34,336 nt of DNA from a virus. A program made the translations under genes and the position numbers. The notes beneath the pieces were generated by a model. It was not told where the DNA came from. It did not search any database and saw nothing but the letters and a program-made list of their open reading frames with translations. The stretch lies in the IMG/VR virus record IMGVR_UViG_3300011113_000771, positions 1 through 34,336 of that record; one strand, written 5' to 3'. This document shows, piece by piece, positions 194-34,336 of the stretch; within the stretch, counting starts at the first letter, position 1; each line of letters opens with the position of its first letter.

Positions 194-2899
194 ATGCTTA
201 ATATTAATAATGTTTTTGACAATTTGGAAGCAAATCATTCTGAAATTACAAACTTGGTTCCAAATATTTTTGATTTTTCAGATGATGAAGATTTTATGTT
301 TGGTTCCAAATATATTCTTGACACTGCTTTACAAAACGATGGTAAGATATTAGCGGCTGGAGAGGGTATAGGTGTTTTTTACAACCAGCAAAGAGGTGCA
401 GCTGTAATTAGATACAATTTAGATGGAAGTTTAGACGACACTGTTCATACACATAGATTTAATGATGATTTACAAGCAATCGGCTTGCAATCTGATGGAA
501 AAATTATTGTTTGCGGTAATTTTTCCAATTTTATCACATTTACTTACGATGTAACCGCTGTTGGAAAAATTGCTAGATTAAATAATGATTTTACTTTAGA
601 TGATACTTTTGGAACTGGAGAAGGTTTTGATGGGAATGTGTATGATTTAAAAGTTTTACCCGATGATTCTATGCTTTGTATTGGCAATTTAGGATCTTAT
701 GAAGATAACATTGTCAACAAAATTGTTAAAATAAATAATGACGGATCTTTAAATTCTGATTTTAATTCAAATGTAAGTGGTGTTAATTTTGGGGGTAATA
801 CGCCTCAAACACTGTTTATCCAAAGTGATAATAAAATTTTAATTGGCGGAGCAAACGGCTTGTTAATTAGATTAAATTCAGATGGAAGTCTTGATGGCGA
901 ATTTACAGCACCTGCAATTTCAGGATTTGCGACATCATCAATTAATGCAATCGGTCAGCAGGCAGATGAAAAAATAATTATTGCGGGATCTTTTAACGAC
1001 ATTGACGGTCATGCTGTTACTTGTATTGCGAGACTTAACACAAATGGTTCATATGATTCAACATTCGGCTTATCTGGAAATGGGCTGGTACGATGCACAG
1101 ATACTCTTGAGACATGTTTGGAATCACCTTCAAGTTTTTCAATTTATGCTTTAGCAGTTCAGCCTGATAACAAAATAATTATTAGTGGCAATTTTAATGT
1201 TTATGACACAACGCAAGTATTTAAATTGATTAGATTGGAATCTAATGGCTCGCTTGATGAGACATTTGCGGTAATTTATGATTTTGATGATCGGGTTAAA
1301 AAGATAAAATATTACAATTCTAATTTGATTATATTGAATGGTTATTTTTTCAAACCTGCTTTAAATTTAGCTGTGTATAATTCATCGGGAGTTTTAAATA
1401 GAACTTTTCAAAATCCTTATATTCCTGTGATAAGAGGTATTAATGATGGTGGTAAAGACATGTACGATGGTGCTAATTTTATCATAACAGATAAAATACA
1501 ATCATACGACAGCGCAAGGCAAAATGAATTTCAAAGTGAAAACACGCTTCCGTCAACTCATAAGCAATGCAGAGATAATATTTTCAGAAATATAAATGCT
1601 GGTGGTTTTTACAAATATGTTCCAGTATTTACAGACTCAATAATTAAAAACGATAATTTTTATAAGATACCAAGTTGGATTAATGTAAACTCAAATGACC
1701 AAGTTGGTTATGGGGTTGACGAAAATGGTTTTTGGTTTGTAGGGAATGCAAATAATTCGACTTATTTGATGACTACAAATTTTGAAATACCTGATACTGA
1801 CATAACAACTGTTACATTTACATTTTTACATGATGATCATTGTTCCGATCAAGGCATTTGTTTTTATCATGACGGCGACAATCCTATCTGGGTTTGGGGA
1901 CCAGATAATAGTAGGATTGCGTGTCAATACAATTGTCCATCGGTTTGGATTTATGGTAAAACAATAGAAACTTCTAATGATGATTTATTAGAAGTTGGCT
2001 TAACATATACGGCAGTAGCAGTTTACAATCCTAATACTGGCACTACAACTTTGACCACTTATTTAGGAGAAGACACGAACGGCACACCTATTTCTTCATT
2101 ATCTTTGGTTGAAAGTTTGGGCGGCGGCAATTTTAGAGTAGGAATTTATGCTGATAGCGACGGATCGGAGTTAAGACAAAATTCTTCATCTAAATCGTAT
2201 TTTAAATATTTAAAAATAGAACATGGCTCAAACACATATGAGTTCAAAAAAGAGCATTATTTTGGCAGTGTTAACGCAAGATATTTCACTAACATGTATC
2301 AAGGCATGTTTGTCATGGCAGCTACTGGAATTGATATTAATGAATTTGCAATAGTTGGAGATATAGGCAGTGATGGTGATCCTCCAGTTATTGATATAGT
2401 TGAAATTTATCCGATAACTTCAAATGGAAAGTCATATACGGCTTTTTACAAGTCAAATTACAATGCAGACAATAACGATCCATCAATTAATCACTTCATT
2501 ATTGTTCCGGGTTCATCTGATGGAATAACACATCTTTATGATGACACAGGTGAGTATGATGATGATTGTTTACAAGGATTGGTAGGCAAAGATGAAATAT
2601 ATTACTTTTTAGTGGCAAGAAGTGATTCTCAGAGGCTTTCTGATGAAGAAGCTACAGCTTTAATTCAAAAGTTTATGGATGTGATATCTGCTGAACCTCC
2701 TGTTCCTCCAGCTTGCACACAAGCAATTTGTGGAACAACTTCTGGTTTAGCTTGTGATTTAACTTCTTCTTGCGTTTGTTCAAAGAAAAAATTATTTCCA
2801 GCCAATTGTTATGTTGGACAAATCAGATCAAATTCTTGTAGTTATGCCAATTCGGCGTATTTGCCTGCTATTACAGTGTGCAGACAGCGTTTGATTTGA
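194..2899 (+). CDS. Delta-60 repeat propeller plus lectin-like fibre/adhesin protein
   Basis: A 901-residue protein. I chose ATG 194 because AGAGGT (185-190) lies just upstream; an earlier in-frame ATG at 158 falls inside the previous gene. Residues of about 40-430 hold some seven Delta-60-type repeats, each with a blade of the form QSDGKIIVCGNF followed by IARLNNDGSLDDTF-like text, which in known families builds a beta-propeller. Residues of about 460-700 look like a concanavalin A-type lectin/glucanase jelly roll (WINVNSNDQVGYG, FTFLHDDHCSDQGICFYHDG, NFRVGIYADSDGS). I cannot point to catalytic residues there. After a linker ending EPPVPPACTQ comes a Cys-rich tail shared with the preceding gene. 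Likely role: a receptor-binding or decoration fibre on the virion. No signal peptide is seen. The frame is closed by a hairpin terminator. Confidence 0.85.
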   Translation: MLNINNVFDNLEANHSEITNLVPNIFDFSDDEDFMFGSKYILDTALQNDGKILAAGEGIGVFYNQQRGAAVIRYNLDGSLDDTVHTHRFNDDLQAIGLQSDGKIIVCGNFSNFITFTYDVTAVGKIARLNNDFTLDDTFGTGEGFDGNVYDLKVLPDDSMLCIGNLGSYEDNIVNKIVKINNDGSLNSDFNSNVSGVNFGGNTPQTLFIQSDNKILIGGANGLLIRLNSDGSLDGEFTAPAISGFATSSINAIGQQADEKIIIAGSFNDIDGHAVTCIARLNTNGSYDSTFGLSGNGLVRCTDTLETCLESPSSFSIYALAVQPDNKIIISGNFNVYDTTQVFKLIRLESNGSLDETFAVIYDFDDRVKKIKYYNSNLIILNGYFFKPALNLAVYNSSGVLNRTFQNPYIPVIRGINDGGKDMYDGANFIITDKIQSYDSARQNEFQSENTLPSTHKQCRDNIFRNINAGGFYKYVPVFTDSIIKNDNFYKIPSWINVNSNDQVGYGVDENGFWFVGNANNSTYLMTTNFEIPDTDITTVTFTFLHDDHCSDQGICFYHDGDNPIWVWGPDNSRIACQYNCPSVWIYGKTIETSNDDLLEVGLTYTAVAVYNPNTGTTTLTTYLGEDTNGTPISSLSLVESLGGGNFRVGIYADSDGSELRQNSSSKSYFKYLKIEHGSNTYEFKKEHYFGSVNARYFTNMYQGMFVMAATGIDINEFAIVGDIGSDGDPPVIDIVEIYPITSNGKSYTAFYKSNYNADNNDPSINHFIIVPGSSDGITHLYDDTGEYDDDCLQGLVGKDEIYYFLVARSDSQRLSDEEATALIQKFMDVISAEPPVPPACTQAICGTTSGLACDLTSSCVCSKKKLFPANCYVGQIRSNSCSYANSAYLPAITVCRQRLI

Positions 2900-2908
2900 T
2901 GAGTAAAC

Positions 2909-2958
2909 GACCAAACAAAAACCCACACCTTTTGATGGGTGTGGGTTTTTTATTGGTC
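2909..2958 (+). terminator. Rho-independent terminator, probably two-way
   Basis: Perfect 9-bp stem ACCCACACC (2921-2929) with GGTGTGGGT (2938-2946), followed by a T run (2946-2951) and preceded by an A run, so it can work on both strands. An outer GACCAA (2909-2914) / TTGGTC (2953-2958) pair extends the structure. It sits between convergent genes ending at 2899 (+) and 2976 (-). Confidence 0.9.
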
Positions 2959-2975
2959 AAGCTGGAAGGAATGAC

Positions 2976-3311
2976 TTAGGAACCAACGCTCACAACGATG
3001 AAGGAAACGATATCGCTTCCGCTGCCACCAAGGGTGACAGTCCATATGCCACTGGCTAAAGCGAGAGTACCGCTAGCACCGGCTGGTGAAGAGGAATCTT
3101 GGCTGGAAGCGATAACAACATAATTAGCGGCAACGCCGGTAAGAGGTGGGATTTCGACGGTCGCTGCTCCAGCACTGAGAGCTTTAGAACCGGCATAAAC
3201 GATATGAGGACCGATAAGATGACCAACGCCAAGGGTTTGACGACCTTGTGCGCCCTTGTTGTAGGGTTCAGAAGAGCCTTGTCCGACTCCGGTAACACTA
3301 GTTGCGCCCAT
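2976..3311 (-). CDS. Small, probably abundant virion/decoration-type protein
   Basis: A 111-residue protein rich in Gly, Ala, Ser and Val (GVGQGSSEPYNKGAQG at the N-terminus, then beta-type stretches such as NYVVIASSQD and DIVSFIVVSVGS). I do not recognise the family. The ATG at 3311 is preceded by a perfect AGGAGGT ribosome binding site, and the gene ends at a strong terminator, both pointing to high expression. Its base composition is unusual: two 60-base lines (3001-3120) are 52% and 55% G+C, while a typical neighbouring line is 22-35%. Codon optimisation of a highly made structural protein or recent acquisition could explain this. A role as head decoration or outer virion protein is inference only. 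Confidence 0.75.
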   Translation of the reverse strand: MGATSVTGVGQGSSEPYNKGAQGRQTLGVGHLIGPHIVYAGSKALSAGAATVEIPPLTGVAANYVVIASSQDSSSPAGASGTLALASGIWTVTLGGSGSDIVSFIVVSVGS

Positions 3312-3409
3312 AATAACCTCCTAAAAAACTTTCTTTAAAATAATTTGTGTTTGCCAATTGTTTTTTCAACACTTTTGACATTAGTATATATTAAGATGAT
3401 TAAAAAAAA

Positions 3410-5240: not shown

Positions 5241-5564
5241 ATGCCAAGTTTTGCTAGTTTGAACGAAAGCATAAAAAATTTCAGGGAAGAAAAACGCCAA
5301 CACAAGGAAGAGGAAACCGCCGATTTAATATCGAGAGGTATTGATATCGGCGGTGAAGATTTTTGGGAAGATTTTATGCGTATTATTGGTGATGGAAGAG
5401 GTTTTTCTGCTCTTCTAGATATCAATCAACAAAAAGTTGCAACTTGGCGGAATAAAATTAATAATGCTTTATCGAAATACTCATCTAAAGAAGATGATGA
5501 TTTTCCAGAAAGACCAAAAAAACGCCGATTAGTTGGCACAGATGATTATGAAGGTGATTTATGA
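5241..5564 (+). CDS. Charged helical protein, unknown
   Basis: 107 residues from ATG 5241, placed after AAAAGGG (5228-5234). An earlier in-frame start would lie inside the terminator hairpin. The protein is strongly charged (NFREEKRQHKEEETADL) with a central segment DFWEDFMRIIGDGRGFSALL and an acidic/basic C-terminus (DDDFPERPKKRRLVGTDDYE). No family is recognised. It overlaps the next gene by the ATGA arrangement (5561-5564), implying translational coupling and a shared function or complex. Confidence 0.7.
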   Translation: MPSFASLNESIKNFREEKRQHKEEETADLISRGIDIGGEDFWEDFMRIIGDGRGFSALLDINQQKVATWRNKINNALSKYSSKEDDDFPERPKKRRLVGTDDYEGDL

Positions 5565-5893
5565 AAAAATTCAATGAATGGTTAAGTTTTAAGAGCAATG
5601 TTCATGAAGAAGTGAACCCAAGCGATGTAGTTGATTCTGATAAATTTGGTTTTACTAAAATTCCGGGCGCTCAAAATTCCGGCAGCATCAAAAATGCTAG
5701 TGAAAGACTAAGTAAGATTATTAATCTCTACGGCGTTAGAAACAATAAAATGCTTTTAGCAGATATTATGAAAGATATTTATGATTTTTCATCAGCAGAT
5801 GAAATCAGTAAATTAAAAAGAGATTTAAGATATCTTTCTAATCACATTGAAGAAAACAATAATTTAGATATCCCAGAAAGCGAGCAAGAATAA
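5561..5893 (+). CDS. Small helical protein with FNEWL N-terminus
   Basis: 110 residues, starting MKKFNEWLSFKSN, a peptide again similar in pattern to T4-type capsid-targeting leaders, though without a clear L-x-E cleavage motif. The C-terminal half (SERLSKIINLYGVRNNKMLL, then ELKRDLRYLSN-like helices) looks all-alpha, and the tail is acidic. GAAGGTG five bases before the ATG is a fair ribosome binding site embedded in the previous gene. Function unknown; possibly a packaged internal or core protein. Confidence 0.7.
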   Translation: MKKFNEWLSFKSNVHEEVNPSDVVDSDKFGFTKIPGAQNSGSIKNASERLSKIINLYGVRNNKMLLADIMKDIYDFSSADEISKLKRDLRYLSNHIEENNNLDIPESEQE

Positions 5894-9711: not shown

Positions 9712-10641
9712 TTACTTAGACAGCGTATAATCTAGGAATTGCATTCCCATTTGGGGTATTAATAATTGTTTAATACGCATATTCATTTTAATTCTATCAG
9801 AAACATTTCCTGTCAAGAAAAATCCATCTGCTGGTTCATTTACAGTCTTGCTATCAATAATACGCAAACCAACATCTGCAATAAATTTGGCGTAAGTCCT
9901 TTGAGGAGTTGTAACTTGGATGGTTGGGTAGTTCTTAAAATCATGACCTAATTTTTCCATTTCTTCTTTAGTTAATATCAGATGAACATAAGATTTGTTT
10001 ATCTTGGTATAAACATGACCACCATGCCTGCTAATATATGGATGGCATCGCATTCTTATAATGCCATCATTTGCCACGACTGATTTTGCCTTATTGAGAA
10101 TATCTTGAGGAGTTTCTCTCTCAACATGATCTACAACATCATAAATATAAATCAAATCATATGGACCATTTTTAACTACTTCGTCCCAAGAAGTTGTCAA
10201 CAATTTTTTCTCATTTGAGCTTATTTGAAAATTATCTTTAATATCATAGCCAACAACAAAACTAGGATTTTTTTCAGCAATTGCTTCAACTAAATGACCA
10301 TAGCCAGTTCCAAAATCCAATATCTTTTTATTTTCAAAGGCAAAATTAGGATAAAATATATCTCTTATGCCTCTTGCACGATCCATTTTATCTTCGTGAT
10401 TATTTTCGTCACAAATTAGATCTTGTTGAACAGCTGCCGTCCATGCAGGATTGTCAACAAAAACCTTTAATGGGTCATCAGTTATAACTGGTTCATTCAA
10501 AACTGTTTTTTCTTTTTCAACGACATCTTGTTTTTTTTCTTCTACAACAATAGTCCCATCTACTAATATGTTTATTTTGCTTTTAAGCTGGGCAATTTGT
10601 TTTTCTATGTTATCAACAATTTCAAGCAATTCTTTTTTCAT
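9712..10641 (-). CDS. Class I SAM-dependent methyltransferase with N-terminal coiled coil
   Basis: 309 residues. Residues 1-28 form a short heptad-like coiled coil (MKKELLEIVDNIEKQIAQLK), then an acidic linker. The Rossmann methyltransferase core begins near residue 105 with motif I, ILDFGTGYGHL, followed by VVGYDIKDN (acidic ribose-binding position), GPYDLIYIYDVVDHV (motif IV region) and a strand near VVANDGIIRMRCHPYI. The substrate is not evident; many such phage enzymes act on sugars or surface polymers. ATG 10641 has a TGAGG ribosome binding site and a TATAAATA box upstream, so late expression is likely. It heads the operon of repeat-rich structural genes, which suggests a role in modifying their products or an associated glycan; this is inference. 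Confidence 0.8.
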   Translation of the reverse strand: MKKELLEIVDNIEKQIAQLKSKINILVDGTIVVEEKKQDVVEKEKTVLNEPVITDDPLKVFVDNPAWTAAVQQDLICDENNHEDKMDRARGIRDIFYPNFAFENKKILDFGTGYGHLVEAIAEKNPSFVVGYDIKDNFQISSNEKKLLTTSWDEVVKNGPYDLIYIYDVVDHVERETPQDILNKAKSVVANDGIIRMRCHPYISRHGGHVYTKINKSYVHLILTKEEMEKLGHDFKNYPTIQVTTPQRTYAKFIADVGLRIIDSKTVNEPADGFFLTGNVSDRIKMNMRIKQLLIPQMGMQFLDYTLSK

Positions 10642-12872: not shown

Positions 12873-13379
12873 TCAGTTCCATTTAGAAAAAACAGTGTTA
12901 GAATAATCTGTTCCAGTGTTCCTAATAACAATTTGTCCAGCAGTTCTCTTATCATCAGTGACTTGTCCAGTTAATAGATCTTGTTCAGCTGCTTTTGCCT
13001 TTTTGAAATGATCTCTTAATTCTCTTCCAACAAGCTTCATTAAAACTTTTGTTATGTGCTTTTCACTTTTGTCTTTTTCATTGTCGAAAATATCCATCAA
13101 CATTGTTTGCAAGTCAAGTTCGTATGCTTCGCCATATGGTTGTGTTTCTGGCTTTTTCTGAGTTTTAAAAGCTAAAATATCTCCATGCATATAAAATCTA
13201 ACGCCTTCAAAAGTTGTGGGAACAGGGTATGCATAAACGAATATGTAAGGCTCATGTTCATCATGAGTAAAGTCTTCTACTTTGAGACCATCTTTTTCTA
13301 ACACATTCATTAGAAGACGAAGTCTTTTTTTTGCCATAAAATGATGACGGTTTACATATTCGTTAAATAATATCATCAT
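12873..13379 (-). CDS. Uncharacterised 168-residue protein
   Basis: Begins MMILFNEYVNRHHFMAKKR, then a basic helix, a beta region (EPYIFVYAYPVPTTF, VRFYMHGDILAFKT) and a helical C-terminal half (HITKVLMKLVGRELRDHFKK). I recognise no family. The start codon shares one base with the stop of the upstream gene (TAATG), and TGAGGA is a good ribosome binding site within that gene. Tight coupling to the 422-residue protein suggests a physical partner. A structural or head-completion role is possible from the neighbourhood only. Confidence 0.75.
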   Translation of the reverse strand: MMILFNEYVNRHHFMAKKRLRLLMNVLEKDGLKVEDFTHDEHEPYIFVYAYPVPTTFEGVRFYMHGDILAFKTQKKPETQPYGEAYELDLQTMLMDIFDNEKDKSEKHITKVLMKLVGRELRDHFKKAKAAEQDLLTGQVTDDKRTAGQIVIRNTGTDYSNTVFSKWN

Positions 13380-14647
13380 TAGCAGTTCCTCAATACTAAT
13401 TCAGGAGTTGAAGCAACGCAGCGAATAAGATTTTGCAAATCACTTGGATTGCCATTGAATGGCAATTCTTTAACGCTTAGTCCATTAACATTTCCTGCTG
13501 CATCTTGTAATGTTTCAAGAGATGCGTTGATGAAAATAACTCCATCTCTCTTGACAAGAAACTCAGTCCTGTCTTTTAGAGGATTTCCGTTTTCATCCAT
13601 CTCGCCAGTTTCTTTTTGGTACTGAATTTTCAAATCTTGCAAAGTTACAAGATTTCCTTCAGCATCAAACAAGGCTTCAGATGCGTCATTTTGGAATGTG
13701 GAAACACTTAAGACACCGTTGTCGTAACCACTTCTTAAAATGTTTGAAAGATCCATGCCAACAAAATAAAGAGTTCCATTATCTGCTAAAACATTAACAA
13801 TGAAAACTCTCTTTTCAAAAGATGTAGCGATTGATTCAATTATCACTCTATGACGAAAAACCTTTTTCTCTTCGGGAGCGCCACCATCAAGCTTTTCCAA
13901 TTCTGGATCAGAAAGATACTTTTGAGGATCATCTTGTTGTAATACCCATCGACCAACATCAATTGAACCAAACTTACTGTTGAATCTTGTTGAAATCCTA
14001 ATCGAAAAAGTCTTTTCATTATAAATTATGTCTTCTTGTTGTGCGCCAGAACCAACCTGAATAGCTCCAATCAAAGAGGCAAGATACTTTCTATGAAGAT
14101 CTGCTTTGTTGCTATAATATCCAGAAATTCTAATAAATGTATTGACGAGTTCTGGCATGGAAGACAATGTAGTAGTATAGTGATTTACCAATGAAACGGC
14201 TGGATTAGCCATATCAAGATCATCTCTAATTTTCTTACGCATTTCACCAGATGCTTTGTTAATATTAGCGTTTTGTCTTAAGAAACAAACTTGAAGATTG
14301 TCTTCTATAAACTTTTTCTGATAAGTAGAAAGTTCACCATCTCTTATCTGCATAATCATTTGGACTAAAGTGCCAACATCGTTTTTGATGCTTTCTTTGA
14401 AAAATTTGTTTTTCCAAGAACTGAAGTCAGACACCTTGTTGTCTTTGGGCATGTCTGGCTCTTTGGGCTCATGAAGCATTGGCTTTTCCATAGGTGAGCG
14501 ATTCTGCGGAACGCTCACTTGTGTAGTCTTGTCGTATGACTGCGGGGCAAGACTAGTGGGATCAGATCCCATGAATGCATCGGGTGGTGGAGCAGGGTTT
14601 TCCTGCTCATTCATTAGCCAATGTTGCAGATTGATCAGATTCGGCAT
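13379..14647 (-). CDS. Uncharacterised 422-residue phage protein
   Basis: Starts MPNLINLQHWLMNEQENPAP, followed by a Pro-rich linker. Residues from about 80 on hold helices (DVGTLVQMIMQIRDGELSTY, MPELVNTFIRISGYYSNKAD) and then a beta-rich C-terminal half (FRHRVIIESIATSFEKRVFI, LVKRDGVIFINASLETLQD). It ends CVASTPELVLRNC. I recognise no family and see no catalytic motif. The N-terminal hydrophobic/aromatic peptide (LINLQHWL) has the same style as other candidate targeting leaders in the window. AAGGAAG provides a ribosome binding site. The first 41 bp overlap the end of the small-terminase-like gene in another frame. Confidence 0.8.
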   Translation of the reverse strand: MPNLINLQHWLMNEQENPAPPPDAFMGSDPTSLAPQSYDKTTQVSVPQNRSPMEKPMLHEPKEPDMPKDNKVSDFSSWKNKFFKESIKNDVGTLVQMIMQIRDGELSTYQKKFIEDNLQVCFLRQNANINKASGEMRKKIRDDLDMANPAVSLVNHYTTTLSSMPELVNTFIRISGYYSNKADLHRKYLASLIGAIQVGSGAQQEDIIYNEKTFSIRISTRFNSKFGSIDVGRWVLQQDDPQKYLSDPELEKLDGGAPEEKKVFRHRVIIESIATSFEKRVFIVNVLADNGTLYFVGMDLSNILRSGYDNGVLSVSTFQNDASEALFDAEGNLVTLQDLKIQYQKETGEMDENGNPLKDRTEFLVKRDGVIFINASLETLQDAAGNVNGLSVKELPFNGNPSDLQNLIRCVASTPELVLRNC

Positions 14648-15053
14648 CTTTGTCTTCCTTATTGCTTGTTAATTTATTTATTGTTTCAATCAAATTTCTT
14701 CTATCTGTTATGGTTATATTATTATTTTGAGTAGCATTAATTTTAGATGCTTGCTTCTCTTTCAGCTTTAAAGATGTCATCAAATCGGCAATTCTGCTTT
14801 TGCCGATTGCTATATCAGACTTTAATTTTGCAAGATTCACTAATGCTTCTTTGCTAGAAGAAGTAGAATCTCCCTCATTCATGACCATTTCGACAAAATT
14901 AGAAAGAATTGCATCAACTTCTTTGCGATCATTACGCAAATCTTCCAAAATTTCACCATAAAGTTCTAAAAGTTGTTCATCAGTAACAACCGCATTTTGC
15001 TCGGTAGTTGGTAAAACAACAGGAATAGACGGAAGGACAGGTTTGTTTTTCAT
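14607..15053 (-). CDS. Possible small terminase subunit (gp16-like)
   Basis: 148 residues. A Pro/Val-rich start is followed by a long helical region (LLELYGEILEDLRNDRKEVD, SSKEALVNLAKLKSDIAIGK, IADLMTSLKLKEK). Near residue 105 there is a switch to a short beta segment, NATQNNNITITDRRNLIETI. This layout, central helical hairpin followed by an N-rich beta strand and then a short helix, parallels T4 gp16 and related small terminases, which recognise DNA and regulate the large terminase. The similarity is by pattern only, and the large terminase is not nearby. There is no ribosome binding site; a weak TGTAAATA lies 5 bp before the ATG. Confidence 0.6.
   Translation of the reverse strand: MKNKPVLPSIPVVLPTTEQNAVVTDEQLLELYGEILEDLRNDRKEVDAILSNFVEMVMNEGDSTSSSKEALVNLAKLKSDIAIGKSRIADLMTSLKLKEKQASKINATQNNNITITDRRNLIETINKLTSNKEDKDAESDQSATLANE
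14675..14682 (-). promoter_or_regulatory. Late-promoter-like box AATAAATA (minus strand), tentative
   Basis: Matches NATAAATA, 27 bp before ATG 14647 in the correct direction, but lies inside the coding sequence of the overlapping upstream gene. In DNA this AT-rich a chance match is quite possible. Confidence 0.3.
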
Positions 15054-15095: not shown

Positions 15096-15506
15096 ATGGT
15101 TGCGCCAAGAAAAAATAATAGCGATGAAGATGGTTTGGACAAAAAAGTTCAAACATTATATGACTCGACATCAAGAGTTGATGAAAGAGTAAAAATGTTA
15201 TTGGAAAGTATGGACAAACTAGATACAAAACTTGAAAAAATTATTGACAAACAACTAGAATTACAAACAAAAATAATATTATTAGAAGATAAAATGGAAA
15301 AAATAAGTGACAATGTTGATGACATGTATGAAAGAATTGAAGATTTAGAAAAAGGTCACAACGACTTATTCACATATAAAGTTGGTGCCGAATCTCAAGT
15401 CAAAAATGCTTTCACAATGATTTATAATATTGGAGTTACTATTTACAATGTGGCTTTACCAATTGTTATCGGTTATATACTTTATGCAATAGGACTACCG
15501 AAATGA
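15096..15506 (+). CDS. Tail-anchored coiled-coil membrane protein
   Basis: 136 residues: a charged N-terminus, a continuous coiled coil (residues of about 15-90: VDERVKMLLESMDKLDTKLE, LEDKMEKISDNVDDMYERIE), then a hydrophobic C-terminal segment VTIYNVALPIVIGYILYAIG that should span a membrane. This is the layout of XhlA-type holin-associated proteins and of some spanin-like proteins, so a lysis or membrane role is possible. No family-specific motif confirms it. It heads the long plus-strand run. No ribosome binding site is seen, and the ATG overlaps an AT-rich upstream sequence. It overlaps the next gene by the ATGA arrangement. Confidence 0.75.
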   Translation: MVAPRKNNSDEDGLDKKVQTLYDSTSRVDERVKMLLESMDKLDTKLEKIIDKQLELQTKIILLEDKMEKISDNVDDMYERIEDLEKGHNDLFTYKVGAESQVKNAFTMIYNIGVTIYNVALPIVIGYILYAIGLPK

Positions 15507-16894
15507 GTGAAGAAATATTATCTAAAATTAGATTGAAAGATACCAAAGGTAACATTAATTTCAAGCCTTTGAAAGTAGATTCTTCAAGTAATTCTTTACT
15601 TAAGCCAATAATTGAAGCGTTTGAAAATAGCGACAAAGTTAAGGTCGGATATTCTACTCTTGAAAAGAACAAAGGCTTAGTGCATCCAACACTAAAAAGA
15701 AAAACACTTTACCTTACTGGTGGCGCACTTAGAGATCATCTAAAGGGCAAAACATTCAAAAATTATGACTTGGTGACAGACGCTACACCAGACGAAATTG
15801 TTCTCATCTTAAAAAACTCTGAAACACCATTCAAACATGTTTCTGGAGATCATCAGTTTTCCGATAAAGAAATTGTGTTTTACCCTTCAAGACATGATGC
15901 AAAACATAATGTTATGGAAATTACAGTTCAAAAAGGAAACCAAAAGGCTTATATTTCTACTTTAAACAGTAACAGTAAAAATAGAAACATTGTGCCTCAA
16001 GAAGCCAAATTTGTTCATAATATAGAGCAAGATGCTTACTCAAGAGATATAACAATTAATTCACTTTATCTCAAACTTAAAAACTCTGATGGCGATAATG
16101 GTGAGTTGACTGACCCCGTTGGCGGGGCGCATGATCTAAAAGTAGGAGAAATTTCCACTGTTCAAGATCCAGAAGCAACATTTAAAAAAGATCCATATCT
16201 AGCGTTCAGATTAGCTGATATTTGTTGCCGATTTTCTCCAGAAAAGAAAATTCCTGAGAGATTCTTGGATGCAATTCGTCATTTTACTAAGAATGCTGAT
16301 CTCGATAACAAATTGCTCAGAAAGTATTATGTCAGCGCAATCGAAAATATGGATGTAGATCCAACACAATATCTTAAAAATCTGCAACAAGCTGGTTTGT
16401 TACACAAAATTTTCCCAAATTGCAATTTTGCAAACATTATTAATGATTTGCCAAACAACAAGATCATAGTAACAGCTTATTTACTTCATCCCAACAATGT
16501 TGAAATGGTTAAAAACCTTTTGTTGGCTCAGGGATATTCAAATGGTGATGTTAATGAAATTGCCAAATTTATGAAGCTTGGTGTTTGGTGTTCAGGTAAC
16601 ACTCATGACACAAGCCTAATTCACGATCTTATTACTAAGCCTTCCAGACTCCCTCATTCCAAGATTTATGATTTTCTTAAATTGTTTGGTAAAGGCGATC
16701 TTTATCACAAAGTATTCAAACAAGATTATTCAAATGCCACAAAGAAATACATCGAAGATGAATCAGGAGATAAGGTTGCAAACCCAAATTATATCAAATT
16801 CTTAGGTAAAAGTCCTGATTATGACGAAATGGATGTTGTCAGAAAACATTTGTTGGATAAAGCCATAAAAGAAAAGATGACATATGGCTCGTAA
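15503..16894 (+). CDS. Nucleotidyltransferase of the poly(A) polymerase/CCA-adding fold, probably degenerate
   Basis: 463 residues. The head domain is recognisable: LYLTGGALRDHLKGK at residues 69-83, then FKNYDLVTDATPDEI, and later AYSRDITINSLYL, DPVGGAHDL and a helical neck (KKDPYLAFRLADICCRF). In active family members the second motif is D-x-D; here it is N87-Y-D89 (AAT at 15761-15763), so one metal-binding carboxylate is missing. The neck motif that selects ATP/CTP, usually E-D-x-x-R, reads K-D-P-Y-L. An ordinary CCA-adding activity is therefore doubtful. The C-terminal half is helical with no motif I know. It overlaps both neighbours and reads with the tail genes, so it may be a structural or regulatory use of the fold. 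AGGA seven bases upstream serves the ATG. Confidence 0.8.
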   Translation: MSEEILSKIRLKDTKGNINFKPLKVDSSSNSLLKPIIEAFENSDKVKVGYSTLEKNKGLVHPTLKRKTLYLTGGALRDHLKGKTFKNYDLVTDATPDEIVLILKNSETPFKHVSGDHQFSDKEIVFYPSRHDAKHNVMEITVQKGNQKAYISTLNSNSKNRNIVPQEAKFVHNIEQDAYSRDITINSLYLKLKNSDGDNGELTDPVGGAHDLKVGEISTVQDPEATFKKDPYLAFRLADICCRFSPEKKIPERFLDAIRHFTKNADLDNKLLRKYYVSAIENMDVDPTQYLKNLQQAGLLHKIFPNCNFANIINDLPNNKIIVTAYLLHPNNVEMVKNLLLAQGYSNGDVNEIAKFMKLGVWCSGNTHDTSLIHDLITKPSRLPHSKIYDFLKLFGKGDLYHKVFKQDYSNATKKYIEDESGDKVANPNYIKFLGKSPDYDEMDVVRKHLLDKAIKEKMTYGS

Positions 16895-17378: not shown

Positions 17379-17385
17379 GTTGCAT

Positions 17386-20300
17386 ATGCCAATAGATAAT
17401 TTTGGAAGAGAAATACCAAATTTAAATCCATCGGATTTGCTTGGTAATACCAAAACCACTCAACAAAACAAAACAACAACAGATAATAAAGATTTGGCAG
17501 GATTGTTGTCCTCAATGTCTGAGAAATTTGATTCTAGTGTTAGAAAAGTTGAAGAAATATTTGGCAAATTAATGAGCTACATGAAAAATACGGAAAAACA
17601 AGATAAAAAATTAGACAAGATGATGTCATTTCAAGAAAGAATGTACAAACTAACCACTACAGAATTCAACAGAAGCGGTGGCGCAGAAGGCGCTAAGCGC
17701 ATGAATGAATTAGTCAAACATGGCTTGAAAAAAGGAAGTATTTATGTAGCTGATGTTATGACTCACAAATTGCTAAGAGATATCAAATCATTAATTCAAG
17801 TGCAAGTTAGTGGCAGAGGTGCTGCTAAAGAACATAAATTAATGAGTCCAAAAGCATATGCTAGAATGTATGGACCATATGTGGGTGCTGAAAAAACTGA
17901 AGCTGAAAAAACTTCGAAAGAAAAAGAAGAAAAAGGTGGTTTTTTAGAGAGTTTTTTCAAAGCAGAAGCATACAAAAAAGTAGAAGGTGTTTTGAAATCA
18001 TTTGAAGATACAATATTAAATGTTAGTATTAATAAGCCTCTTAGTGAATCTTTTGATTTCAAAAAAATGATCAAGGATGAGAATGAATTTGCCATAAATA
18101 TAAAAAGAGCAGTTTTTCAAACTCAAGGATTAACGGCAGAAAGTGGTGAACTTTTAAACGCTTATACGAAAATACAGAAAGTTGCAGAAACAACTGGATT
18201 TGATAGAGTATCTTATCAAGCTCAGTATATTAAAAGTGTTAAGGCTGGTATCAGAAGTCAAAAAACTGCTGAAAAAATTACGCAATCACAATTAAATGCT
18301 GAAAGACAATTGGGTTTAGCTGCTGGCGATTTAGGAGATACATTTATTGATTTTGTTAACCAAGCAGGACTAGGAGTTAATCAAGTTTCTGCAATAGGCA
18401 GAGGCATGACTGAAGTCGCCAGACAAACTGGATTGACTGGCGAATACATGAAAAAAGCATTAGATGCTAGCAAGCCATATGTTACAAATCTAAGAAATGC
18501 TGGTCAGCTGACTGCGATGTCCACTAAAAATGTCATGCAATTAACTGCTAGTTTCCAGAAATTTGGCGTTGCTGGTGAAGATATAACAAAATATTTGACA
18601 AGTGGAACAGCTTTAATAATGGATGGAAGTGATAAAACAGCATCGTTTTTATTACAAGCTGCTGCAAGAGCAGGAGTAGTAGAAGAATTAATGACAGGAT
18701 CGATTACAAAGTCTGAAGAAGGCATGAAATCTTTCGCTCAAGGATATGGTGCGATTTTAGATGCAATGAACATTCCTAGAACTTTAGAAGGTTTTAATAA
18801 GCTAACAGATAAACAAAAACAAGTCTTAAATTTAAGTGCTAAAGCAATGACCGGGAAAGAAGCTGGTGAACTTATATTGGGATATCGTGCTATTGAAGAA
18901 GCTGGCAAGACATTTTCTGACAAAATGAAAGACTTGGCTGTAGAGCGTCAAAAAATTAATAAAATGACTATGGATGAGAAAAAAACATTTGAGGAAAAAG
19001 AAAGAGCATTAAAAGCTGGAAAAGCTCAGGATATATTGACGGCAGTCGCAGAAGCCAACAAGGGAGCAAAAAATCTTGGCGAAGCAATGGCACAGTTTGG
19101 CGAAGGGAGAAGTAAGTTCGCAAAAGATTTGAATATATTGGCTGGCGGTAAGATAGGAGAAGAGTTCAAAGGAACGAATGAAGAAGCGATAAGAACAGCT
19201 TTAACAAGCGCAATTACAGAAGTTAACAAGGGATTAATGAAAGAAGGTAAAAAAGATTCATTAATTCAAAGTAACAGAATAGAGGAAGCATTAAAAGATA
19301 ATAGCGGAAATAAACTAAATCAATTAATTGAAGATATCGATAAATCTAATAAGGTTTTAACTACAGCGCAATTAGAAGCAACAGATCCCGTTACAAAAGC
19401 ACAAAACAATTTGTTGAAAGTTAATGAAGAAGCAAGAGATTATTTGCAACAAATACGAAACTTTTTAGCTTTAATACCCGGCATAGCAACAGCATTAACA
19501 GCTTTAGGTGGTCTTGGTATTGTCATGCAAGGTCTAAGTGGCGCATTTAGCATGTTTTCTAATTTTAAAGGATTATTTAAAGGTTTTGGCAATTTTTTTG
19601 GAAAAGGAGGAACACCAGCTATTCCACCAGTAAAACCACCAGCAGGAGGAGGAGGAGGAGGAGGAGGACTTTTAGGCAGAGCAGGAAGATTCTTAGGTGG
19701 TGCAGGAAGAATTGCTGGCAAAGCATTAGGTCCATTAGGTTTACTAGCTTCTGGTATAGGTGGATTCATGGAAACTGGCACTGCTGCTGGTGGCATATTC
19801 GGCGCATTAACAGGTGGTGCTGGAACAGGAAGTTTCTTAAGTCCTATGTTAGGAGTTGAAAAGGGTGGAACTGCTGATAAAGCACTTGGAGTTCTTGGTT
19901 CTGCTGGATATGGAGCAGCAACAGGCGCAGCCATAGGAAGCATTATACCGGGTGTTGGAACTGCTATTGGTGCTGGAGTTGGCGCAGTTATTGGTGGATT
20001 AACTGAAGGAATAAAAATTGGAGTAGGAAATATGTCATTTAATCAAGTCGTTGATGCTATGGCATCTGGCGTTGGTGGCATGTGGAATACTATTTATAGC
20101 AATGTATTAGGACCAATAGGAAATACAGTTTCTGGAGTTCTTTCAAGCATAGGAAGTGTAGCATCTAATGTTGTTTCTGGTTTGGGTGATGTGGCAAGTA
20201 ATATTGGCAAAGTAGGAACTTCTTTAGCATCAAGTGCTTGGGAAGGAACTAAATCGGTGGTATCTACTGTTGGATCTGCCGCATCTAGTGTTGGTTCTGC

Positions 20301-20922
20301 CATAGCAAGTGGAGCATCCACAGCATGGAGTTATGTCAATCCTTTGAATTGGTTTGAAGAAGGAACAAGAAAGATAACACAAACTGGTCTTGGCATTTTG
20401 CACGAAGGGGAAATGGTAATTCCCCAAAATATTTTAGAATCAATGAAAGCGGTAGGTAATGGTGCCTTTAATACCACAGGTATTGGTGGCATAGTTAAAA
20501 ATATGACTGGTAGTAACATTTTAGGAGATGTTGCTTCAAGAGCTACTGGCATGTTAAGTGCCATGACTGGTCCAATAGGATCGATGATAGGAACTGTTGC
20601 TCAGGCTGGCATGCGTCAAATTGGTATGGTTCCAAGTTCTCCAAGCAACCAATTGATGGCAACAAATGCTGCAATGCAATCTCAAATATCCAATGCGTTT
20701 GCCGATAAGAAAGCTGAAGGAACACAAACTGTTGAAGAAAAGAATTCTTCTGACATGTTGAAGGCTTTGAACACAATTATAGATTTGCTTGGCAAAGCTC
20801 CTGTTGCTGCTCCTGCTGGTGGCGCTGTTAAGTTAACAGCCCGTGGAGTATTTGGTGATTCTGGTTTAGGAAGCGTAATGGGTGGCGACTATGCGAAGAA
20901 TGATACAATAAAAGCTTTATAA
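17386..20922 (+). CDS. Tail tape measure protein
   Basis: 1178 residues from ATG 17386; a TTG at 17380 is an alternative. The N-terminal 150 residues and much of the middle are helical and coiled-coil rich (LLSSMSEKFDSSVRKVEEIF, DLAVERQKINKM). A hydrophobic stretch at about 690-725 (FLALIPGIATALTALGGLGI) is followed by a Gly-rich zone with eight consecutive Gly and several GxxxG segments at about 738-870, suggesting membrane insertion on ejection. Near residue 1005 is ILHEGEMVIPQNI, a widespread tape-measure signature. The protein sets tail length; at about 0.15 nm per residue it predicts a tail of roughly 180 nm. It is followed by baseplate genes in the usual order. No peptidoglycan hydrolase domain is evident. 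Confidence 0.93.
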   Translation: MPIDNFGREIPNLNPSDLLGNTKTTQQNKTTTDNKDLAGLLSSMSEKFDSSVRKVEEIFGKLMSYMKNTEKQDKKLDKMMSFQERMYKLTTTEFNRSGGAEGAKRMNELVKHGLKKGSIYVADVMTHKLLRDIKSLIQVQVSGRGAAKEHKLMSPKAYARMYGPYVGAEKTEAEKTSKEKEEKGGFLESFFKAEAYKKVEGVLKSFEDTILNVSINKPLSESFDFKKMIKDENEFAINIKRAVFQTQGLTAESGELLNAYTKIQKVAETTGFDRVSYQAQYIKSVKAGIRSQKTAEKITQSQLNAERQLGLAAGDLGDTFIDFVNQAGLGVNQVSAIGRGMTEVARQTGLTGEYMKKALDASKPYVTNLRNAGQLTAMSTKNVMQLTASFQKFGVAGEDITKYLTSGTALIMDGSDKTASFLLQAAARAGVVEELMTGSITKSEEGMKSFAQGYGAILDAMNIPRTLEGFNKLTDKQKQVLNLSAKAMTGKEAGELILGYRAIEEAGKTFSDKMKDLAVERQKINKMTMDEKKTFEEKERALKAGKAQDILTAVAEANKGAKNLGEAMAQFGEGRSKFAKDLNILAGGKIGEEFKGTNEEAIRTALTSAITEVNKGLMKEGKKDSLIQSNRIEEALKDNSGNKLNQLIEDIDKSNKVLTTAQLEATDPVTKAQNNLLKVNEEARDYLQQIRNFLALIPGIATALTALGGLGIVMQGLSGAFSMFSNFKGLFKGFGNFFGKGGTPAIPPVKPPAGGGGGGGGLLGRAGRFLGGAGRIAGKALGPLGLLASGIGGFMETGTAAGGIFGALTGGAGTGSFLSPMLGVEKGGTADKALGVLGSAGYGAATGAAIGSIIPGVGTAIGAGVGAVIGGLTEGIKIGVGNMSFNQVVDAMASGVGGMWNTIYSNVLGPIGNTVSGVLSSIGSVASNVVSGLGDVASNIGKVGTSLASSAWEGTKSVVSTVGSAASSVGSAIASGASTAWSYVNPLNWFEEGTRKITQTGLGILHEGEMVIPQNILESMKAVGNGAFNTTGIGGIVKNMTGSNILGDVASRATGMLSAMTGPIGSMIGTVAQAGMRQIGMVPSSPSNQLMATNAAMQSQISNAFADKKAEGTQTVEEKNSSDMLKALNTIIDLLGKAPVAAPAGGAVKLTARGVFGDSGLGSVMGGDYAKNDTIKAL

Positions 20923-32688: not shown

Positions 32689-33688
32689 CTATGATTTAGG
32701 ATATGTTACTGGTGATTTATCACTATTCCCAGAAGCTATCGATAACTACGAATCACTTTATTTTGCTAAAAATAATAGTGAAACCACTTTAACACAAGCG
32801 TTAAATTATGGTTCTGACCTTATCATTGTGGAAGATGCTACAGCATTTCCAGATAAAGGTATTTTGAGAATAAATTTAGATGATAAATATGCTACTTTTC
32901 CTGAATATGTTTATTATGAAAAAAGAACAAGTCAAACATTTAGCAGTTTAATTCGTGGTTTTGCTGGTTCAAGACAAACAAACTGGGCAGCAGGCGCACA
33001 AATAATTGGTGGCGTTTTTGCTGATCATCACAATAGCATAAAAGATGCTATTGTAAAAATTGAAAACACTTTAGGAACAGTTGAGAGTCCTGCTAGTGGC
33101 TCATTGAACAACATACTAAAACAACAAGAGATAAAATTCTTATCACCAAAACCTGTTTTTAGGGCTTATCCACTTAATGGTTCCACTCCACTTACTGTTA
33201 AATTTCAAAACTTTAGCAATGTTGTTGCAAATAAGTTTTTCTGGGATTTTGGTGATGGTGGCACAAGTTTGGAAAGAAATCCGACTCACACATATGTGAA
33301 TGAAGGCAGCTTTGATGTAAAGCTTAGAATTGTAACAAATCTGGGTGCCCAAGGTCTTGCAATAAAGAAAAGTTATATAACAGTATCTAATGATATACCA
33401 AATTTATTCATCTATGGTACACCTAGTGTTGGGTATTCTGTTGTTACAGCCCAAAAAATGGGTATACAGCCGACAGCATTTAGTCTAATTGATCAGTCTG
33501 GTGGTGATATAATTGAGAGATTTTGGGTTTTTGAAGATGGTGGAAATCAAAGCCAAATAAATCCCAATATACATTACACTACTCATACATATCAAAGACC
33601 CGGAACATATACGCCTACTTTGTTGATAACATTGCGAGGTAATCAAGTAAATAAAATAATAGTTTCTAATCCATTGAAGGTATTGTAA
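32669..33688 (+). CDS. Fibre protein with two PKD domains
   Basis: 339 residues. N-terminal 140 residues match a common phage fibre head: [55 protein letters not shown]. Two PKD (polycystic kidney disease) beta-sandwich domains follow: the first at about 166-241 with [20 protein letters not shown], the second at about 244-335 with [15 protein letters not shown] and [18 protein letters not shown] domains commonly mediate binding to carbohydrates or other proteins at surfaces. The second domain has W-V-F-E-D-G instead of the usual W-D-F-G-D-G, so it is divergent. The stop shares a base with the next ATG (TAATG). Confidence 0.85.
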
Positions 33689-34336
33689 TGAATGGCAATG
33701 AAGTGTTTTTAGAAGGATATTATATTGTTGTTTCAAATAACAACAATATATATATTCGTAATTTAAAAAGCAAATACGATTTGCAAAAAAATGAAACAAT
33801 AAATTCTGCATGTTTTACAACATTTGAAGAAGCTGAAAAGACATTAAATTATATTCAAGATATTAATGATGATTTAGAAGTCAGAAATATAGATTGTTCA
33901 TCTTTTTCATGTGTTTACACATGTGTACAAGATCCGCCATCAATTTTTCAATGGGTGGTGCAACCGGGAGATGATAATTGTATTTCTGGTTGTGGTTGCG
34001 GCGATCCTCCTTTGTCAACATGTGATGCTGGATATGAGGGAGATAAAATATTTGTCAATTGTTCAGGTGTTCCAACACCTAGTCCATCACCTAGTCCATC
34101 ACCTAGTCCATCACCTAGTCCTAGTCCATCACCTAGTCCTAGTCCATCACCTAGTCCTAGTCCATCACCTAGTCCTAGTCCATCACCTAGTCCTAGTCCA
34201 TCACCTAGTCCTAGTCCTTCACCTAGTCCTAGTCCATCGCCTAGTCCTAGTCCATCGCCCAGTCCAAGTCCATCACCTAGTCCTAGTCCTTCACCTAGTC
34301 CATCGCCCAGTCCAAGTCCATCACCTAGTCCTAGTC
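33688..34336 (+). CDS. Cys-rich protein with long Pro-Ser repeat (partial, 3' end outside window)
   Basis: Open frame from ATG 33688 to the window edge, at least 216 residues. Residues 1-70 look globular ([35 protein letters not shown]). Residues of about 70-127 are Cys-rich ([30 protein letters not shown]). From residue 131 on there is an unbroken Pro-Ser dipeptide repeat reaching the edge. The repeat should form a stiff, extended stalk between head and an unseen C-terminal domain, as in many adhesins. The Cys-rich end modules of the first two genes in this window have a similar flavour, but no sequence match was found here. Probable tail fibre or adhesin. Confidence 0.8.
34078..34336 (+). 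repeat. Pro-Ser coding repeat (6/18-bp units)
   Basis: About 86 codons alternate Pro and Ser without exception, built from CCT/CCA/CCC and AGT/TCA/TCG codons. The main unit is CCTAGTCCTAGTCCATCA (18 bp), with shorter 12-bp units at the left edge. The tract continues beyond the window, so its real length is unknown. Confidence 0.95.

Follow-up and report, generated by a model that had tools for sequence, protein, structure and literature searches.

A class II tRNA nucleotidyltransferase homologue without its catalytic residues, probably kept as a virion or assembly protein in a huge-phage lineage

A gene set among the structural genes of an uncultured phage encodes a protein that is predicted to retain the whole fold of a class II tRNA nucleotidyltransferase (NTase) and that has lost catalytic and nucleotide-selecting residues of that family. 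The gene was found in IMG/VR record IMGVR_UViG_3300011113_000771, of which we analyzed positions 1 to 34,336 (34,336 nucleotides, called the window below; residue numbers are those of the window NTase). The explanation that we favor, with a probability of roughly 0.6, is that the protein is a pseudoenzyme whose ancestor was a CCA-adding enzyme of the morphogenesis locus, probably carried inside the head at one time, and that it is now a non-catalytic protein of the virion or of its assembly. The loss of catalysis is well supported by the residue losses taken together with published mutant data, and for the new role the virion or its assembly is most likely, judged from sequence and gene context.

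The reading frame begins with ATG and encodes 463 residues. Its head domain exceeds the Pfam gathering score for PF01743 (PolyA_pol; 74.8 bits versus a cut-off of 23; E value of 1e-20), and the closest assignments elsewhere are phrog_2244, tRNA nucleotidyltransferase, in PHROG (1e-19) and E. coli poly(A) polymerase among solved structures (3e-14). The protein misses the cut-offs of the NCBIfam CCA/PcnB models (63.3 bits versus 438.8), and its canonical syntenic relatives, which score higher (at most 133), are also below them. Annotation pipelines label the gene as encoding a tRNA nucleotidyltransferase and would group it with the translation genes of phages; this is probably wrong for the present lineage. 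As the first-pass annotation had described, the gene overlaps both of its neighbors, sharing 4 nt with the upstream gene (15503-15506) and 11 nt with the downstream gene (16884-16894). The same annotation spoke of a tail operon, a fair description given the phrog_429 match, the tape measure match, and the baseplate wedge genes that also lie downstream (Table 1). The 422-aa and 148-aa genes on the opposite strand mark this phage lineage. Elsewhere in the window, a 309-aa ORF (9712-10641, minus strand) weakly matches phrog_4752, tRNA methyltransferase (3.4e-5), and the last ORF (33688-34335, plus strand) runs into a Pro-Ser repeat (PSPSPS...) and is truncated where the record ends.

Table 1. Coordinates of the NTase gene, its active-site positions, and its neighbors in the window
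Feature	Position	Strand	Basis
Conserved 422-aa neighbor, synteny anchor	13379..14647	-	Present across syntenic loci
Conserved 148-aa neighbor	14607..15053	-	Conserved gene that marks the lineage
Coiled-coil protein, 136 aa, with C-terminal hydrophobic (tail-anchor-like) segment	15096..15506	+	ORF; coiled-coil-like Pfam matches
Degenerate class II tRNA nucleotidyltransferase homologue, 463 aa (this study)	15503..16894	+	ORF, PF01743, phrog_2244, AlphaFold model
G73-G74 ... R77-D78, family motif GGALRD, kept	15719..15736	+	Retained in nearly all 69 syntenic homologues
N87-Y88-D89 in place of catalytic D-x-D	15761..15769	+	D/D in 17/17 canonical; N/H/E/T/G/S at 87 in window clade
E139, acid newly fixed in window clade (V in canonical)	15917..15919	+	42/43 of clade
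Y150...N155 in place of E/D...R of EIATFR motif	15950..15967	+	R155 in 17/17 canonical, 0/43 of clade
S180-R181-D182 in place of R-R-D	16040..16048	+	R180 in 17/17 canonical, 0/43 of clade
K229-D-P-Y-L233 in place of nucleotide-template motif E-D-x-x-R	16187..16201	+	R233 in 17/17 canonical, 0/43 of clade
Match to phrog_429, DNA end protector, 164 aa	16884..17378	+	1.4e-8; homologue near NTase in most syntenic loci
Tape measure protein	17380..20922	+	phrog_58, E value 2.5e-8

The first-pass annotation had read the family motif GGALRD as kept, the catalytic D-x-D (motif A) as N-Y-D, and the template motif E-D-x-x-R (motif D) as K-D-P-Y-L. All three readings held when the protein was aligned with its relatives. 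Two active-site changes had been missed, namely the replacement of the Arg of EIATFR by N155 and that of the first Arg of RRD(FT) by S180; in addition, the strand acid at 150 is a Tyr in the window protein, at a position that varies more widely. Since the anchors around the changed sites are kept (G73-G74, R77-D78, D177, R181-D182, and D204..G208) and flank the N-Y-D site on both sides, an alternative alignment that would restore the catalytic pair is ruled out. Because at least three other key positions have changed too, an activity test of N87D alone, as had been proposed, would be uninformative.

A first scan for homologues returned six close ones (77 to 79% identity), and an alignment-based scan brought in more, including relatives at 51% and 36% identity and a distant set. 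Nine IMG/VR loci of close relatives (77 to 79% identity, some of them duplicates) have N or H at position 87 without exception. Close relatives that keep D-x-D, which the first-pass annotation had named as grounds against its interpretation, were thus not encountered, and only more distant syntenic relatives keep the pair. A search that starts from the NTase is biased, and to lessen this we seeded a synteny search with the adjacent 422-aa gene. The NTase gene adjoins this gene in 75 of 80 viral loci; the remaining five have less than 1.9 kb of sequence on the NTase side, where the gene may simply be cut off. Removal of duplicates left 69 NTase sequences for alignment and 68 for the tree. LR756511, an uncultured 595-kb phage, is the sole GenBank phage record with a full-length relative of the NTase, and it was also the sole match when the 422-aa neighbor was searched against GenBank phage records. 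Its gene is canonical (D-Y-D, EIATFR, RRD, and E-D-Q-L-R) and has the same neighbors as that of the window. A DNA search with a canonical locus gave no match, and we found neither cultured relatives or published virion proteomics nor, in a literature search, reports of inactive phage CCA enzymes.

Canonical syntenic relatives, LR756511 included, have D87, D89, R155, R180, and R233 in 17 of 17 sequences. The window protein falls in a clade with 100/100 support that is nested within these canonical relatives, and D87, R155, R180, and R233 are each absent from all 43 of its aligned members; because loci close to the window rank higher, the proportion of decayed members should not be taken as a census. 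The D-x-D pair is also lost outside this clade, in L167 (K-Y-S), in L174 (N-I-E), which sits on a long branch, and in L090/L091 (D-Y-N), and the pair has therefore been lost at least four separate times. At this one conserved locus the sequences range from the canonical enzyme to the decayed fold, and the losses recur separately, so that the change of a viral enzyme into a pseudoenzyme can be seen clearly.

With the catalytic Asp pair and the nucleotide-binding and nucleotide-selecting residues gone, the window protein is most likely unable to add CCA. A still-working CC- or A-adding enzyme that tolerates its substitutions would fit the good match of the head domain to family models, and the first template position is known to differ among CC-adding enzymes (PMC11784652). 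We consider such an enzyme very unlikely, however, given that the losses extend to a catalytic Asp and to three conserved Arg residues, one of them the template Arg. Both Asp residues of the E. coli D-x-D are reported to be essential, and the AxA variant to be inactive; in selections on the human EDxxR motif, D165 and the template residue R168 were never replaced, whereas the first position tolerated some change (PMC11784652).

Another possibility that had been raised is an enzyme with changed chemistry, in which a rebuilt metal site (e.g., D89 with E139) would transfer a nucleotide or phosphate to another target. D89 is retained in 38 of the 43 clade members, and E139, newly fixed where canonical relatives have V, is present in 42; by the strand register of the model (secondary structure), residue 139 would share a face with the strand acid at 150. 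S129, mostly Lys in canonical members, is newly fixed in the clade alongside E139, and the same register would place 129 and 139 opposite each other. Together with D89, the mostly retained GG, R77, D78, R181, and D182 could serve in nucleotide binding or in chemistry at a rebuilt site. We nonetheless regard an altered enzyme as improbable, because R155, R180, and the template R233 are missing throughout the clade and because position 87 drifts among six residues (N in 32 members, H in 3, E in 3, T in 2, G in 2, and S in 1). The loss of D87 is universal in the clade, and Asn itself is not fixed. D89, moreover, is lost in L156, L157, L172, L121, and L127, and the last two, although they lack GG and RD as well, still have E139, which speaks against relocation of the active site through E139 as well.

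Selection on the gene has continued. Values of dN/dS are about 0.04 to 0.1 for most pairs, like those of canonical pairs, and the highest seen is 0.18; dS is saturated in several pairs, and the less saturated ones (L139/L143, L144/L147, L156/L157, and L090/L091) give 0.04 to 0.08. The clade thus combines lost catalytic residues with purifying selection, as in a conserved NTase-fold pseudoenzyme. The loss of active-site residues might by itself bring to mind a decaying pseudogene or an error of sequencing or assembly, and we attach almost no probability to either: dozens of independent contigs carry an uninterrupted frame and agree with one another, the 4-nt upstream overlap is retained in close relatives, and the dN/dS values reject a pseudogene.

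An AlphaFold model of the window NTase, built from a 29-sequence alignment, has a mean pLDDT of 87.4 and a pTM of 0.83 and displays the head-neck-body-tail fold of class II enzymes. It aligns with the structures of class II CCA enzymes and of PcnB at Z scores of 20 to 25 over 313 to 366 residues, so the scaffold is predicted to be intact. Mean pairwise identity in the window clade, compared with that among canonical members, is 0.54 versus 0.48 over residues 19 to 67, 0.64 versus 0.71 over residues 68 to 110, 0.52 versus 0.65 over residues 137 to 215, 0.30 versus 0.52 over residues 216 to 300, and 0.33 versus 0.47 over residues 301 to 370. By this measure, relaxation in the window clade affects the neck and body and spares the N-terminal extension and head domain, a pattern that leans, indirectly, toward a role in protein interaction over tRNA binding.

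These figures bear on an unlikely alternative, in which the protein would be a non-catalytic tRNA- or RNA-binding protein whose CCA-enzyme body binds acceptor ends to protect, sequester, or ferry tRNAs. The predicted presence of the entire class II fold, body and tail included, and the up to 60 tRNA genes on large contigs of the lineage would suit such a function. However, the regions that lose conservation are those that make the tRNA contacts in class II enzymes, the net charge is only modestly positive in the window protein (+7) and negative in a relative (L019, -5), and the gene sits among structural genes rather than tRNA genes. The first-pass annotation had proposed a repurposed fold in place of a CCA-adding enzyme, and that proposal is well supported by the set-wise loss of residues, the separate losses, the drift, and the purifying selection. 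Between the assembly factor and the RNA-binding protein that it had offered, the shift of conservation from the neck and body to the head domain and N-terminal extension leans to the former.

The tRNA genes number 60 in LR756511 and 46 in contig G002, and the syntenic NTase is the sole PF01743 gene found in each. A second canonical-looking enzyme is present on the contigs of L090, L092, L130, L141, and L167, and the contig of L124 has a second PF01743 gene. That decay is always accompanied by a second CCA enzyme is not supported: among contigs of at least about 180 kb, which are too few and incomplete for a firm comparison, a second gene occurs in 5 of the 9 that carry a decayed copy and in 1 of the 6 whose copy is canonical. 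On the 533-kb contig of L152, which has 39 tRNAs at a strict cut-off, the decayed copy is the only gene of this family that we could find, so decay is not strictly tied to a second enzyme. Separately, L097 (2375-3064, plus strand) and L098 (near 2612-3373, minus strand) encode short canonical class II NTases of 229 to 250 aa with full head and neck motifs and little or no body and tail, and these adjoin a small gene that is KH-like by eye.

Canonical NTases and most members of D1, the decayed branch without the window, start with a leader such as MKSFKEFI or MRTTFLEF, which in some precedes an [ILV]-x-E-[AGS] site. The leader (M-x-x-[FY]-x-E-F) resembles the N termini of the phage T4 proteins IPI, IPII, and IPIII, where it guides these internal proteins to the scaffolding core (PMC3012670). 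As in T4, the genomes of this lineage encode an S77 prohead protease of the T4 type (11 of 13 large contigs). The likeness suggests that the canonical enzyme is probably packaged in the head, a reading of the relatives that is based on sequence. Unlike the T4 internal head proteins, the window protein, which starts MSEEILSKIRLKD, has no N-terminal capsid-targeting sequence, and the leader is absent from the whole of its own sub-clade (D2, 18 sequences); packaging therefore cannot simply carry over to that sub-clade. Among the other ORFs of these loci, the leader motif stands at 99 of 805 ORF starts versus 35 of 4,084 internal Met residues, a contrast whose P value overstates it because the sequences are related. 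In the form M-x(1-4)-[FY]-x-[EDQNKR]-[FYW], the leader occurs on many ORFs of loci L102-L181, L007, and L090-L096, and in the window at 5561-5893 and 12873-13379, which suggests that the set of packaged proteins may be large. The second canonical CCA-type enzymes L183 and L184, on the contigs of L130 and L141, also have leader-like starts (MNFKQWLLTEE and MKFKNWLLKEE). Should the leader truly serve as a packaging signal, canonical members would be particle-borne tRNA-repair enzymes, able to provide tRNA repair from the first minutes of infection.

We propose that a canonical CCA-adding enzyme gained a fixed place among the morphogenesis genes of a huge-phage lineage, that with its T4-like leader it was probably packaged in the head, and that the window lineage retained its fold for a non-catalytic task, most likely in the virion or its assembly and exercised through the head domain and N-terminal extension. 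A possible partner of the window protein is the tail-anchored coiled-coil protein encoded directly upstream. A short upstream protein with a GYILYKLGLQ-type hydrophobic segment at its C terminus accompanies nearly all members of the decayed clade and is also found in LR756511, in most of its nearest relatives, and in L174; the canonical L096 clade has a different protein at this position. Loss of activity, ancestral packaging, present role, and partnership are inferred. A broader version, which we put forward tentatively and hold to be doubtful as a whole, is that the huge-phage lineage packages a CCA-adding enzyme in the head for delivery to the host and that in a large branch it became a structural, non-catalytic component of the particle. 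If this were true, a tRNA-repair enzyme would be the ancestor of a virion protein.

Compared with known systems, the window protein is homologous over its whole fold to class II CCA-adding enzymes and bacterial poly(A) polymerases (Thermotoga maritima 3h39, Planococcus 6qxn, human TRNT1 4x4w, and E. coli PcnB 3aql), with which it shares GG..RD, D177/R181-D182, and DP..GG. Unlike them, it lacks the first Asp of D-x-D, the Arg of EIATFR, the first Arg of RRD, and the Glu and Arg of EDxxR, and it has a drifting neck and body, an extra N-terminal region, and a fixed place between phage structural genes. The tRNA nucleotidyltransferases of other phages (phrog_2244; Sinorhizobium phage phiM12 and PBECO4-like jumbo phages) are likewise viral class II NTases, but they differ in that D-x-D is kept in all distinct non-syntenic viral loci whose motifs we read. 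The gene of LR756511 (at about 580.7 to 582.2 kb) is like that of the window in its orthologous position and neighbors, with about 29 to 33% identity, and differs in its fully canonical active-site residues and capsid-targeting-like leader. The animal NTase-fold pseudoenzymes MiD49/51, MAB21L1, and NF45/NF90 retain the fold without the catalytic residues and reuse it in protein or RNA binding. The window protein resembles them by analogy, in that catalytic residues are lost and the fold is kept, whereas they belong to other branches of the superfamily, are eukaryotic, and are not of the class II CCA type.
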